Made by a program: the position numbers and the translations under genes. From the NCBI RefSeq assembly GCF_000739935.1, contig NZ_BBJU01000015.1, positions 1 to 64,000 of the forward strand: 64,000 nucleotides of DNA. The letters are read 5' to 3'. Source of the DNA: Agrobacterium rubi TR3 = NBRC 13261. Its GTDB lineage: Bacteria > Pseudomonadota > Alphaproteobacteria > Rhizobiales > Rhizobiaceae. Position 1 is the stretch's first letter. Every line of letters begins with the position of its first letter. The notes under the pieces are model-generated. The model worked only from the letters and a program-made list of their open reading frames with translations, had not been told where the DNA came from and did not search any database. Positions 28,406-53,533 of this stretch are shown here, piece after piece.

Positions 28406-31400
28406 TCAGATCAGCTCGACGTCAACAACGCCGTTTGCGGACCTGAACGCCGCCCCGATCTCCGGTGAAATGCGATATTTGCCGGGGAGCTCCACCTCGA
28501 TCTCGCGCTGACCATCATCCTTGATGACGATGAAATACACCGATCCGTCACCCTTGTTGAGATGGTGAACCAGCGTTTTCAACGGCCCAGAATCGCGCAC
28601 ATAGACGCGCAGCGCCTTCTGCATCTGAACGGACTTTTCCTCAAGTGATTGCGCGGTCTGGATGCGAAGGCCGATGCCCTCGGGGCGTTCTTCCGCCTGA
28701 ACGGTGATAACCAGGGATTTGCCGACCTCCAGCAATTCGCGATATTGGGCAAGACCTTCGGAAAACAGCACGGCCTCATATTGGCCCGATGCATCCGAGA
28801 ATGTCACAATGCCCATCTTGTTGCCGGTTCTGGTCTTGCGCTCCTGCTTGCCAGTGACCGTGCCGGCCAGACGGCCAGCCGTTGCGCCCTGTTTCACAGC
28901 TGCGGTAAAATCGGAGATATTCTGGACGCGCAGCTTATCGAGAATGGCGCGGTAGGTATCGAGCGGGTGGGCGGTCAGATAAAAGCCGAGCACTTGATAT
29001 TCCCGCAGCAGCTTTTCCGAGGCAAGCCATGGTTGAAAGGCGGGCAGGATCAGCTTCTCGGGGCCGGTCGCGGCACCTGAGCCGAACATATCGTGCTGGC
29101 CGGTGACGCGGCTTTCCTGTGCGCGCTGCGAATAGCCGATGATGCGGTCGAGCCCGCCCAGAAGTTCGGCGCGATCTCTGCCGAAGCAATCGAAGGCACC
29201 GGCGTTGATGAGGCTCTCCAGTACGCGGCGGTTGACCTGTTTCGGGTCGATCCGCAGGCAGAAATCCTCAAGGCTGGTGAAGGGTTTTTCGCCACGAACC
29301 TCAACGAGATGATCGACGGCACCCTCGCCTACGCCTTTCAGCGCGGCCAGCGAATAATAGATGCGGTTTTCGCCCGGTTCGAACCGGCGGGAGGATGTCT
29401 GCACCGAGGGTGCGACGATCTCTATGCCCATGCGGCCCGCATCCTGACGGAAATCGTTGAGCTTTTCGGTGTTGGCCATATCCAGTGTCATGGAGGCCGC
29501 GAGAAACTCCACCGGATAATGCGCTTTCATATAGGCCGTCTGATAAGACACGATGGCGTAGGCGGCGGCGTGGGATTTGTTGAAGCCGTAATTCGCGAAC
29601 TTCGCCAAGAGATCGAAGATGGTGTTGGACTGCGCCTTCGAGACATCGTTGCGCATCGCGCCTTCGACGAAACGCTCGCGCTGCTGGTCCATTTCCTCCT
29701 TGATCTTCTTACCCATGGCGCGGCGCAGAAGATCGGCTTCGCCCAGAGAATAGCCTGACAAGACCTGGGCGATCTGCATCACCTGTTCCTGATAGACGAT
29801 AACGCCTTGGGTCTCTTTCAGCAGGTGATCGATGGTCGGATGGATCGACTCGATCTCTTCCTCGCCATGCTTGCGGGCATTATAGACCGGAATGTTTTCC
29901 ATCGGGCCTGGACGGTAGAGCGCGACCAGTGCGATGATATCCTCGATACAGTCGGGACGCATGCCGATCAGCGCCTTGCGCATGCCCGCACTTTCCACCT
30001 GGAACACGCCGATGGTTTCGCCGCGTGACAGCATCTCGTAGGTTTTTTCGTCTTCCAGCGGAATGGCCGCCAGATCAACGGTTACGCCACGCTTGGCAAC
30101 GAAATCCACCGCCACTTTCAAAACGGTGAGCGTCTTCAGGCCGAGAAAGTCGAACTTGACGAGCCCGGCGCTTTCCACCCACTTCATGTTGAACTGGGTG
30201 ACCGGCATGTCCGAGCGCGGATCGCGATACATCGGCACCAGCTTCGACAATGGACGATCGCCAATCACGATACCGGCGGCGTGGGTGGACGCGTGGCGGT
30301 AGAGGCCTTCGATCTTCTGGGCGATGTCGAGAAGCCGGGCAACGACAGGTTCCTTGTCCGCCTCTTCCTGAAACCGTGGTTCTTCTTCGATAGCCTTGGC
30401 CAGCGTTGTCGGGTTGGCCGGGTTGTTGGGAACCAGCTTGCAGATACGGTCGACCTGACCATAGGGCATCTCCAGCACGCGCCCCACGTCGCGCAGCGCG
30501 GCACGGGCTTGCAGCGAACCGAAGGTGATGATCTGCGCCACCTGCTCGCGGCCATATTTCTTCTGGACGTAGCGGATCACCTCTTCTCGGCGGTCCTGAC
30601 AGAAGTCGATATCGAAGTCGGGCATCGATACGCGTTCCGGGTTGAGGAAGCGTTCGAACAGCAGCGAGAAGCGAAGCGGATCGACATCGGTGATGGTGAG
30701 CGCATAGGCCACTAGCGAACCCGCGCCCGAACCACGACCGGGGCCAACAGGGATATCCTGGTTCTTGGCCCATTTGATGAAGTCGGCAACGATGAGGAAG
30801 TAGCCGGGAAACTTCATGCGTTCGATGACGCCGAGTTCGAAATCCAGCCGTTCGCGGTATTCCTGCTCGGTATATCCCGGCGCCATGCCGAGCAATGCCA
30901 GTCGCTCATCCAGACCTTCGACGGCCTGGCGGCGCAACTCCGCACCTTCGGCACGGTCGGCTTCATCAGGGTCTTCGCTGGCACCAGTGAACCGCGGCAG
31001 GATCGGCCCGCGCTTCTTCAAGACGTAAGAGCAGCGCTGTGCGATTTCGACCGTATTTTCCAGCGCCTCTGGAATGTCGGCAAACAGCGCCATCATCTCG
31101 TCGCGGCTCTTGAGATAATGGTCGGGCGTCAAACGGAAGCGGGTATCATCGGACACGATGGCATTGTGGGCTACGGCCATGAGTGCATCATGGGCATCAT
31201 AGTCGGCGCGCGATGGGAAGAAGGCCTCATTGGTGGCAACGAGCGGCAAGTCATGCTCGTAGGCCAGCGCCATCATGCGTCGTTCATGCGCGCGGTCAAA
31301 ATTGCCCTGACGCTGCAGCTCGATATAGAGCCGGTCGCCAAAGAGTTGCTTCAGCGTCAAAAGCCGACGTGTTGCCAAGGCAACATGGCCTTCTTTCAAC

Positions 31401-31918
31401 GCCATGTCGACCGGACCACCCGAGGCACCCGTCAGAACGATGAGGCCGGAATTGTCGGCTTCATCAAGCCAGGCCTTGGTGATGCAGACGGAATGCCCGG
31501 TGCCTTCACCATCCAGATAGGCGCGGCTGATGAGATCGACCAGTCGCTCGTAACCCTTGGTATCGGCGGCGAGCACCACGATGGATGGCAGTTTCGCCAA
31601 GTTGTTCTGCCCCCGCTTGTCATCGGAGGCATCTTGCATATCGATGGACATCTGGCAGCCGATGATAGGCTGCAAGCCTTCGTCACGCGCTTTCTCGGAA
31701 AACTCGAGCGCGATGAACAGGTTGTTGGTGTCGGTGATGGCGATCGCCGGCTGACTGTCTGAAACAGCCTTGGCCATGATCTTTTTCAAGGGCAGAGCGC
31801 CCTCGAGAAGGGAGTAGGCAGAATGCACCCGAAGGTGAACAAAGCCGGGCGTCGCGAGGTTTTTATCGGCCTTGTTGCCGCTTACAGAAATCTCGCCCAT
31901 CTTATACAATCCCGCCAT
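28406..31918 (-). CDS. dnaE: DNA polymerase III alpha subunit
   Basis: The 1170-residue replicative polymerase. Order of domains: PHP (HLRVHSAYSLLEGA near residue 28), C-family palm with the catalytic DFDIDFCQDRR, fingers, helix-hairpin-helix, and the OB fold (VTGKQERKTRTGNKMGIVTF). A clamp-binding motif QHDMF is visible in VTGQHDMFGS. The first ATG is used; a second in-frame ATG at 31900 is also possible as neither has a convincing ribosome site. Downstream of the SOS-box peptide gene on the same strand. Confidence 0.96.
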   Translation of the reverse strand: MAGLYKMGEISVSGNKADKNLATPGFVHLRVHSAYSLLEGALPLKKIMAKAVSDSQPAIAITDTNNLFIALEFSEKARDEGLQPIIGCQMSIDMQDASDDKRGQNNLAKLPSIVVLAADTKGYERLVDLISRAYLDGEGTGHSVCITKAWLDEADNSGLIVLTGASGGPVDMALKEGHVALATRRLLTLKQLFGDRLYIELQRQGNFDRAHERRMMALAYEHDLPLVATNEAFFPSRADYDAHDALMAVAHNAIVSDDTRFRLTPDHYLKSRDEMMALFADIPEALENTVEIAQRCSYVLKKRGPILPRFTGASEDPDEADRAEGAELRRQAVEGLDERLALLGMAPGYTEQEYRERLDFELGVIERMKFPGYFLIVADFIKWAKNQDIPVGPGRGSGAGSLVAYALTITDVDPLRFSLLFERFLNPERVSMPDFDIDFCQDRREEVIRYVQKKYGREQVAQIITFGSLQARAALRDVGRVLEMPYGQVDRICKLVPNNPANPTTLAKAIEEEPRFQEEADKEPVVARLLDIAQKIEGLYRHASTHAAGIVIGDRPLSKLVPMYRDPRSDMPVTQFNMKWVESAGLVKFDFLGLKTLTVLKVAVDFVAKRGVTVDLAAIPLEDEKTYEMLSRGETIGVFQVESAGMRKALIGMRPDCIEDIIALVALYRPGPMENIPVYNARKHGEEEIESIHPTIDHLLKETQGVIVYQEQVMQIAQVLSGYSLGEADLLRRAMGKKIKEEMDQQRERFVEGAMRNDVSKAQSNTIFDLLAKFANYGFNKSHAAAYAIVSYQTAYMKAHYPVEFLAASMTLDMANTEKLNDFRQDAGRMGIEIVAPSVQTSSRRFEPGENRIYYSLAALKGVGEGAVDHLVEVRGEKPFTSLEDFCLRIDPKQVNRRVLESLINAGAFDCFGRDRAELLGGLDRIIGYSQRAQESRVTGQHDMFGSGAATGPEKLILPAFQPWLASEKLLREYQVLGFYLTAHPLDTYRAILDKLRVQNISDFTAAVKQGATAGRLAGTVTGKQERKTRTGNKMGIVTFSDASGQYEAVLFSEGLAQYRELLEVGKSLVITVQAEERPEGIGLRIQTAQSLEEKSVQMQKALRVYVRDSGPLKTLVHHLNKGDGSVYFIVIKDDGQREIEVELPGKYRISPEIGAAFRSANGVVDVELI

Positions 31919-32012: not shown

Positions 32013-32099
32013 TCACATGGAAGTGAGGATCACCGAGAAGCTTGTAACGAAAACGGCGATGGAAGCGAAGGCGGCGATGTCACGGATGATGTCGGTCAT
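32013..32099 (-). CDS. 28-residue membrane peptide behind a perfect SOS box
   Basis: This short ORF starts at ATG 32099 with a good GGAG site six to seven bases upstream and ends at TGA. The product begins MTDIIRDIAAFASIAV and continues FVTSFSVILTSM: a short charged head and one hydrophobic span of about 20 residues. The gene lies 22 bp from a perfect GTTC-N7-GTTC LexA box and a TTGACA -35. The design (tiny inner-membrane peptide, SOS induction) matches that of the Caulobacter division inhibitor SidA, which is about 29 residues long. No sequence comparison could be made, so this is an analogy only. Confidence 0.65.
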   Translation of the reverse strand: MTDIIRDIAAFASIAVFVTSFSVILTSM

Positions 32100-32120
32100 T
32101 TGTCTCTCCATACTTGTTAT

Positions 32121-32155
32121 GTTCTAACTTTGTTCTCATTTCGTTTCGTTGTCAA
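32121..32155 (-). promoter_or_regulatory. SOS promoter: perfect LexA box and -35
   Basis: On the minus strand, TTGACA (plus-strand 32150-32155) is followed by GAAC-AAAGTTA-GAAC (32121-32135), a perfect alphaproteobacterial LexA box covering the place where the -10 should be. No second promoter is seen between this site and the 28-codon ORF. Confidence 0.7.
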
Positions 32156-32311: not shown

Positions 32312-32995
32312 TTAGAACTCGACGATCTTGCCTTCGCTGAGCGTCACGCGGCGGTCCATGCGGCCCGCGAGTTCGTGGTTGTGGGTAGCGATGAGCGCTG
32401 CCAGACCGGATTGGCGAACGAGTGCCTCCAGCGCTCCGAAGACATAGGATGCCGTCTCTGGATCAAGGTTGCCGGTGGGCTCATCCGCCAGAAGCAGAAG
32501 CGGCGCGTTGGCAACCGCGCGGGCGATGGCGACGCGCTGCTGCTCACCACCGGATAGTTCCGACGGGCGGTGATCGCCGCGATGGCCAATGCGCATGTAG
32601 TCGAGAAGCGCGCTGGCACGCTCCTTGGCTTCGGAATGCGGCAACCCCGAAATGAGCTGCGGCATCATGATATTTTCGAGCGCGGTGAATTCCGGCAGCA
32701 AATGGTGGAACTGGTAGACGAAGCCGATGTCGCTGCGACGGATCAAAGTGCGCTGCTCGTCGGTGAGATCACCACAAGATCTTCCGTTGACGAAGACTTC
32801 GCCAGCATCCGGGTGTTCCAACAAGCCAGCCAGATGCAGCAGCGTGGATTTGCCAGTGCCGGAGGGTGCCACGAGCGCAACGATCTCGCCGCTTTTCAGC
32901 TCGAGATCGGCGTTCTTCAAAATGGACAGGCTGTGCTCGCCCTGCCCGTAAGTCCGTTCCACGCCCTTGAGCCGCAACGCTGTTTTCTGTGCCAT
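32312..32995 (-). CDS. lolD: Lipoprotein-releasing system ATP-binding protein LolD
   Basis: The ATPase that drives extraction of lipoproteins from the inner membrane. The 227-residue protein has Walker A (APSGTGKST), Q-loop ([16 protein letters not shown], typical of the LolD/MacB class), signature LSGGEQQR, Walker [14 protein letters not shown] and switch His in ATHNHELA. It follows the permease gene by 15 bp. Confidence 0.95.
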
Positions 32996-52343: not shown

Positions 52344-53533
52344 CAGCGGTCAACCTCCCCGAACACGATGTCCAGAGAGCCGAGAACAGCCGTCACGTCG
52401 GCAAGCTGGTGTCCCTTGCAAAGGAAGTCCATGGCTTGCAGATGTGCGTAACCCGGCGCGCGGATCTTGCAGCGGTAAGGCTTGTTCGAACCATCGGCGA
52501 CCACATAGACCCCGAATTCGCCCTTCGGCGCTTCGACCGCTGCGTACACTTCGCCGGCTGGAACGTGGTAACCTTCGGTGTAGAGCTTGAAGTGGTGGAT
52601 CAGCGCTTCCATCGAACGCTTCATCTCGCCACGCTTTGGCGGAACGACCTTGCCATCGAGCGACGACACGGCACCAACACGGTGCTTGCCCTGCAAGAGC
52701 TCGACGCACTGCTTCATGATCTTGATCGATTCGCGCATTTCCTGCATGCGGATCAAATAGCGATCATAGCAGTCGCCGTTTTTGCCGACGGGAATGTCGA
52801 ATTCGAGGTCAGAATAGCACTCGTAAGGCTGCGCGCGGCGCAAATCCCAGGCTGCACCCGAGCCGCGAACCATGACACCGGTAAAGCCCCATGCGAACGC
52901 ATCTTCGAGCGAGACAACGCCGATATCGACGTTGCGCTGCTTGTAGATGCGGTTGTCGGTCAACAGACCTTCAACGTTGTCGAGGAACGTAATAAACGGA
53001 TCGCACCACTTGCCGATATCGTCGACCAGTTCAGGCGGCAAGTCCTGATGAACACCACCTGGACGGAAATAGGCGGCGTGCAGACGGGCACCCGACGCGC
53101 GCTCGTAAAACACCATGAGCTTTTCACGCTCTTCGAAGCCCCAGACCGGCGGCGTCATTGCGCCCACGTCCATGGCCTGCGTGGTCACGTTCATGATGTG
53201 CGAGAGAATGCGGCCGATTTCCGAGAAGAGAACACGGATCAACTGACCACGCATCGGAATCTCAAGACCCAGCAGCTTTTCCACGGCGAGCGAGAAAGCA
53301 TGCTCCTGGTTCATCGGCGCGACATAATCGAGACGGTCGAAATAGGGCAACGCCTGAAGATAGGTCTTGGTCTCGATCAGCTTTTCCGTGCCGCGGTGCA
53401 ACAGGCCGATATGCGGATCGACGCGCTCGACGATTTCACCGTCCAGTTCGAGCACGAGACGCAACACTCCGTGCGCGGACGGGTGTTCCGGGCCGAAGTT
53501 GATCGTAAAATTGCGAACGTTATGTTCTGTCAT
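52343..53533 (-). CDS. nuoD: NADH-quinone oxidoreductase subunit D
   Basis: A 396-residue subunit that forms the quinone-reduction pocket with Nuo[21 protein letters not shown] at the start and [13 protein letters not shown] are the family signature. It is encoded separately from nuoC with a 4-bp overlap (ATGA), not fused as in E. coli. Confidence 0.97.

Follow-up and report, generated by a model that had tools for sequence, protein, structure and literature searches.

A 28-codon gene in front of dnaE in Agrobacterium rubi encodes a predicted, diverged homologue of the division inhibitor SidA

We describe a 28-codon open reading frame located directly upstream of dnaE in Agrobacterium rubi, within a stretch of 64,000 nucleotides (hereafter the window). 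Judged by its conservation the ORF is a genuine gene, and by sequence comparison its product is a diverged homologue, very likely an orthologue, of the Caulobacter division inhibitor SidA, lying outside the curated family of that name. It appears quite probable to us that this sidA homologue is derepressed from LexA upon DNA damage and that its product, a predicted inner-membrane peptide, halts division through an inactive FtsW/FtsI/FtsN complex.

The locus and its conservation in Rhizobiaceae

The original prediction had placed a perfect LexA-type box, with TTGACA upstream, ahead of a 28-codon ORF that carries a GGAG ribosome site and encodes one membrane span. All these elements were recovered (Table 1), the single span as a hydropathy prediction with a maximum of 2.27 over 17 residues; the box does stand just before the ORF, at 21 nt from its ATG and not at the 22 bp given there. 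The -10-like element was not picked up by a consensus promoter scan. In several relatives the equivalent of the one-mismatch box is itself perfect, which results in three GAAC repeats in register. An alternative in-frame ATG at 32111, giving a 32-residue product that starts with MERQ, was rejected since it is missing in 20 of 30 same-genus loci (L011-L030), leaving the 28-codon start as the conserved one. The GTTC-N7-GTTC motif alone occurs in the window at chance level (3 found, 2.02 expected), and the case presented below is therefore built on place and conservation.

Table 1. Features of the locus (coordinates within the window)
Feature	Position	Strand	Remarks
lolD-like ABC transporter ATPase, upstream neighbour	32312-32995	minus	best NCBIfam match LolD, below model cut-off
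Terminator-like hairpin	32279-32246	minus	closes off lolD, upstream of promoter
TTGACA, -35 element	32155-32150	minus	
One-mismatch LexA-type box AAACGAAATGAGAAC	32132-32146	minus	overlaps perfect box on upstream side
Perfect LexA-type box GAACAAAGTTAGAAC, GAAC-N7-GAAC	32135-32121	minus	plus strand reads GTTC-N7-GTTC
-10-like CAAAGT	32132-32127	minus	17 nt past TTGACA, within LexA box; assigned by spacing
Ribosome-binding site GGAGAG	32109-32104	minus	
Candidate sidA homologue ORF, 28 codons and stop	32099-32013	minus	product MTDIIRDIAAFASIAVFVTSFSVILTSM
dnaE, DNA polymerase III alpha subunit	28406-31918	minus	starts 94 nt downstream of ORF

DNA matching this stretch is present in 37/37 Agrobacterium genomes, many of the matches stopping at the stop codon of the ORF, and box and ORF were found ahead of dnaE in all 30 same-genus loci that were read. 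All 134 Rhizobiaceae loci used, which comprise 97 distinct coding stretches, keep an ATG followed by exactly 28 codons; this set, like the 108 distinct upstream stretches considered below, counts some genomes twice. Within the genus, pN/pS is 0.133 (26 distinct sequences) against 1.13 in frame +1; for the family it is 0.28 (40 sampled from the 97 distinct sequences) against 1.01 in frame +1, and in frame +2 of the ORF it rises above 2. Variation by codon position amounts to 0.111, 0.001 and 0.304. Conservation of the frame in relatives was the first of the tests on which the original prediction had staked itself, and it left the prediction standing: the frame is kept and purifying selection acts in that frame only, which together with the constant length argues that the ORF is real. 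The signals around it are conserved as well, with TTGAC present in 106 of the 108 distinct upstream stretches, the first box beginning 9 nt after the start of TTGAC in 88 of them, and a ribosome-site motif (GGAG, GAGG or AGGA) in all 108.

A search of the family with profile A1 gave a match at E up to 1 in 199/297 genomes. In all 24 matches fetched (L037-L060) the locus precedes dnaE and combines a short hydrophobic ORF with a box that is perfect or has one mismatch, and the same arrangement was seen in 20/20 further strong matches and in 15 of 20 weak ones, although in one of these 15 (L306) the ORF picked by the scan is probably not the peptide. The other five weak matches (L308, L312, L314, L321 and L324) come without dnaE in the DNA fetched and may be chance matches or moved copies. 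Among named relatives, the best 80 of 183 loci, which span Agrobacterium, Rhizobium, Neorhizobium, Pseudorhizobium and Shinella, are all situated before dnaE, 66 of them with a perfect box ahead of the ORF. The peptide measures about 25 to 35 residues in more distant family members, and an order-level search returned four matches outside Rhizobiaceae (E 3.1e-6 to 0.048), each preceded by a box and located before dnaE.

Relationship to SidA

The decisive step for the identification was a walk along dnaE into other families. A search with the N-terminal part of DnaE found a match in 187/193 genomes of the class, and 89 loci were read besides that of the window, 29 returned directly and 60 fetched non-randomly down the listing of dnaE matches, with some skipped; upstream DNA is short at three of the loci (L104, L116 and L133). 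A perfect box is present within 900 nt upstream of dnaE in 19 of the 89, and for each of the 19 an ORF of 20-60 residues containing a hydrophobic stretch comes after it within 90 nt (at L085 and L093 the ORF with the better ribosome site was used over the scan's best pick). The spacing is specific: these 19 sites are found with a gap of 7, against between 0 and 5 for any other gap in the range 3-12. With the gap kept at 7, ten permuted words yielded between 0 and 4 sites. On the opposite strand the box motif occurs 7 times. No perfect box before dnaE was found in the other 70 of the 89 loci, where the peptide gene must be absent, moved or otherwise controlled. Profile A2 yielded no convincing relative in a class-level search (5/289 at E 0.05, window included), so that at this level only the walk along dnaE reached further. 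That an unused ORF merely happens to lie next to a chance box would agree with the frequency of the motif in the window and with a control in which a short hydrophobic ORF followed 1067 of 5280 random positions, but it is contradicted by the 19/19 pairing before dnaE in other class genomes and by the frame-specific purifying selection, and we regard it as extremely improbable.

Several of the 19 class peptides carry a charged residue plus D ahead of the span (e.g. MDWVKDAAGLAALVG) and others do not, so not all of them need be SidA. At L086, L098, L110 and L113 the box-controlled short ORFs before dnaE have longer N-terminal arms or another motif (for example an ending FWxEIVHSFTG), which suggests either remote versions of SidA or unrelated genes that have taken its place.

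In Caulobacteraceae, dnaE was found in 60/60 genomes searched. The 30 best-scoring of the 60 loci were read, C. crescentus not being among those fetched, and 29 of them show a box with at most one mismatch (19 perfect) and then a peptide such as MVRIARESLALVSVAGFVWMMCSVAQLVA; L179 is the sole one of the 30 where the pair was not found. The NCBIfam SidA model (NF033228, div_inhib_SidA; cut-off 35 bits) scores 59.7 and 72.4 bits on two Caulobacteraceae peptides, and all 20 Caulobacteraceae members of profile A6 match it within E 10, the bit score being given for only the first of them. The window peptide does not reach the curated 35-bit cut-off and matched no family, the description of the ORF as unannotated thus holding for Pfam and NCBIfam models. 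NF033228 does not recognise the rhizobial peptides (0/16 members of profile A3, and no family for one relative even at E 10), and the one weak match of the model in the A. rubi genome (E 0.238) is located elsewhere than the ORF. Over the class, in a sample with few Caulobacteraceae, the cut-off is passed in 0/193 genomes; it is passed in 1/14 control genomes, Caulobacter vibrioides being among the seven controls that ring. In one Caulobacteraceae genome (G403) the model scores 18.1 bits at 465833-465913 (L271), beside a dnaE match at 465000-465692, which indicates that the curated model is narrow and misses relatives even in that family.

With hhalign, the Rhizobiaceae and Caulobacteraceae profiles align at 86% with E 4.8e-6, ungapped from residue 1, and at 90% with E 1.5e-6 when order-level rows are added, these E-values being those for one pair. 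Profile A6, made only from Caulobacteraceae (20 of 24 distinct peptides, without choice by eye), puts the window peptide at the top of 1606 six-frame fragments with E 6.5e-5, the next being at 0.1. Profile A7, which contains no Rhizobiaceae rows (12 Caulobacteraceae and 7 of the 19 class peptides), ranks it above everything else in the complete 5.3-Mb genome with E 1.2e-4, the next at 0.22; its 7 class peptides were selected visually because they have a charged residue at D7 or ahead of it, a choice that favours a match. In 15/15 genomes given, drawn from those with strong profile A1 matches, the peptide adjacent to dnaE is the best match to A7, three of these being weak and narrow wins (E 0.08, 0.175 and 0.62). 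Column shuffles reached the observed similarity in 0/2000 cases when free, in 5/2000 within residue classes and in 10/2000 within the membrane part, the observed score being computed on every sequence and the shuffled ones on 8-by-8 subsamples; the class-preserving results make sequence by itself moderate evidence. Combined with the position before dnaE, the box and the length, it constitutes strong evidence for homology to SidA, and it is on this combination that the probable orthology rests. The earlier likening to SidA, made from length, span and SOS box, is in this way borne out as homology by synteny, by the profile-profile match and by the Caulobacteraceae-only profile.

The link to dnaE

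A simple hairpin-and-T-run test, applied between the ORF and dnaE, revealed no terminator in any of 28 distinct genus loci or 28 Caulobacteraceae loci, and one in 7/77 named loci and in 4/24 other family loci; between lolD and the box there is one in all 27 genus loci with lolD. In the genus, then, a single SOS message may carry both genes, and the message of the peptide may also raise dnaE. According to passages of PMC3323433, dnaE figures among the SOS-regulated genes listed for C. crescentus and is one of the genes from an alphaproteobacterial comparison that includes Agrobacterium species and S. meliloti. The published LexA control of dnaE may thus be the sidA box credited to the next annotated gene, possibly co-transcribed. 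The titles and abstract beginnings found by searches of open-licence PMC report no rhizobial SidA and no dnaE box assigned to a peptide, and neither appears in passages looked up in PMC5189948, PMC10957082, PMC13384398, PMC9578287 and PMC5900048.

The same layout could be read as that of a leader: dnaE would be the target of LexA control and would be adjusted by translation of the ORF, and the peptide as such would serve no purpose. This would fit with the 94 nt separating ORF and dnaE without a terminator, with the SOS regulation listed for dnaE, and with sORF25 of S. meliloti, a translated small ORF in the dnaE1 5'-UTR (sections of PMC10117765) that may be the counterpart of the 28-codon ORF; the text of that paper contains neither SOS nor LexA. 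We nevertheless consider a leader quite unlikely, because selection acts on the protein sequence and not on position alone (pN/pS 0.13) and because SidA, the homologue found in this position, is a membrane protein with a function of its own (part of PMC4211646). In addition, the stretch between ORF and dnaE varies in length (from 94 to 203 nt across 30 loci of the genus and from 100 to 380 nt across 24 of the family) and, for this window, folds no better than its shuffles (z -1.12).

More tentatively, sidA-dnaE could be an ancient alphaproteobacterial SOS operon, its message driven by the LexA box credited to dnaE, in which the brake is made first and the replicase second, with SidA, picked up by the curated model only among Caulobacter relatives, class-wide and the missing division inhibitor of rhizobia, a reading whose chances we put slightly below even. 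If it holds, division of damaged cells would be halted while their capacity for replication is maintained.

Proposed mode of action and comparison with known inhibitors

By analogy with SidA we propose that the peptide is induced by damage, resides in the membrane and arrests division. LexA would bind the candidate box and block the promoter until its RecA-triggered cleavage, after DNA damage, frees it. The peptide would then insert in the inner membrane with its R6-D7 end cytoplasmic, this conserved pair at the membrane edge holding the N-terminus inside, and act on the late divisome as SidA does, so that the FtsW/FtsI/FtsN complex is held inactive and cells elongate until repair is complete. 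The A. rubi genome has lexA with a perfect box upstream and recA with two one-mismatch boxes upstream and no perfect one. It also has a second LexA-like gene, below the LexA cut-off (L281, G000:C26 near 53117-53458), with a perfect GAAC-N7-GAAC box nearby on the upstream side.

Another possibility is that the peptide is some other SOS-induced membrane peptide that acts on the membrane itself and not on the divisome, like E. coli DinQ, a toxic single-span peptide (passages of PMC3567139) that by description has a comparable size, a single span and SOS control. Synteny and homology favour SidA, and the R6-D7 motif and the ASxxxFV core held in common with it go beyond a generic hydrophobic stretch, making a DinQ-like role unlikely in our view. 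Further searches gave 22 pattern matches and no relative in viral contigs, no match in PLSDB plasmids and none at gathering score in Rfam; a single PDB match (E 0.41) was dismissed as chance.

SidA accounts for damage-induced filamentation in one model bacterium. Should the rhizobial peptide work as SidA does, the same checkpoint would exist in Agrobacterium, Rhizobium, Neorhizobium, Pseudorhizobium and Shinella, and probably also in several other alphaproteobacterial families; the cause of the rhizobial division stop would be reduced to a one-gene question and the LexA site would be reassigned from the replicase to a checkpoint gene. The natural variants of a 28-residue helix would be a resource for mapping how the divisome is silenced.

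Among known systems, SidA of Caulobacter is the closest. It is described in part of PMC4211646 as a protein of 29 residues in the inner membrane that blocks division and has FtsW as an interaction partner, and a passage of PMC12700426 attributes the filaments of Caulobacter without lexA to constant sidA expression. The window peptide has 28 residues and, like SidA, one predicted hydrophobic span, [RK]-[DE] at residues 6-7, the ASxxxFV core, a LexA-type box and a place directly upstream of dnaE; it differs in missing the FVWM-x-C stretch of Caulobacteraceae, W19 and C22 being nearly invariant in Caulobacteraceae SidA and missing from the rhizobial peptide. The likeness to sORF25 of Sinorhizobium meliloti is one of position only, as a translated small ORF upstream of dnaE1 (PMC10117765, in part). 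Caulobacter DidA, compared by its description in sections of PMC4211646, is likewise a small division inhibitor with a single span and with the FtsW/I/N complex as its target, but it has 71 residues and is SOS-independent. SulA, YneA and SosA are SOS-induced division inhibitors elsewhere in bacteria (passages of PMC6851548 and PMC13396833) and are by description other proteins, SulA targeting FtsZ (also from part of PMC4211646).
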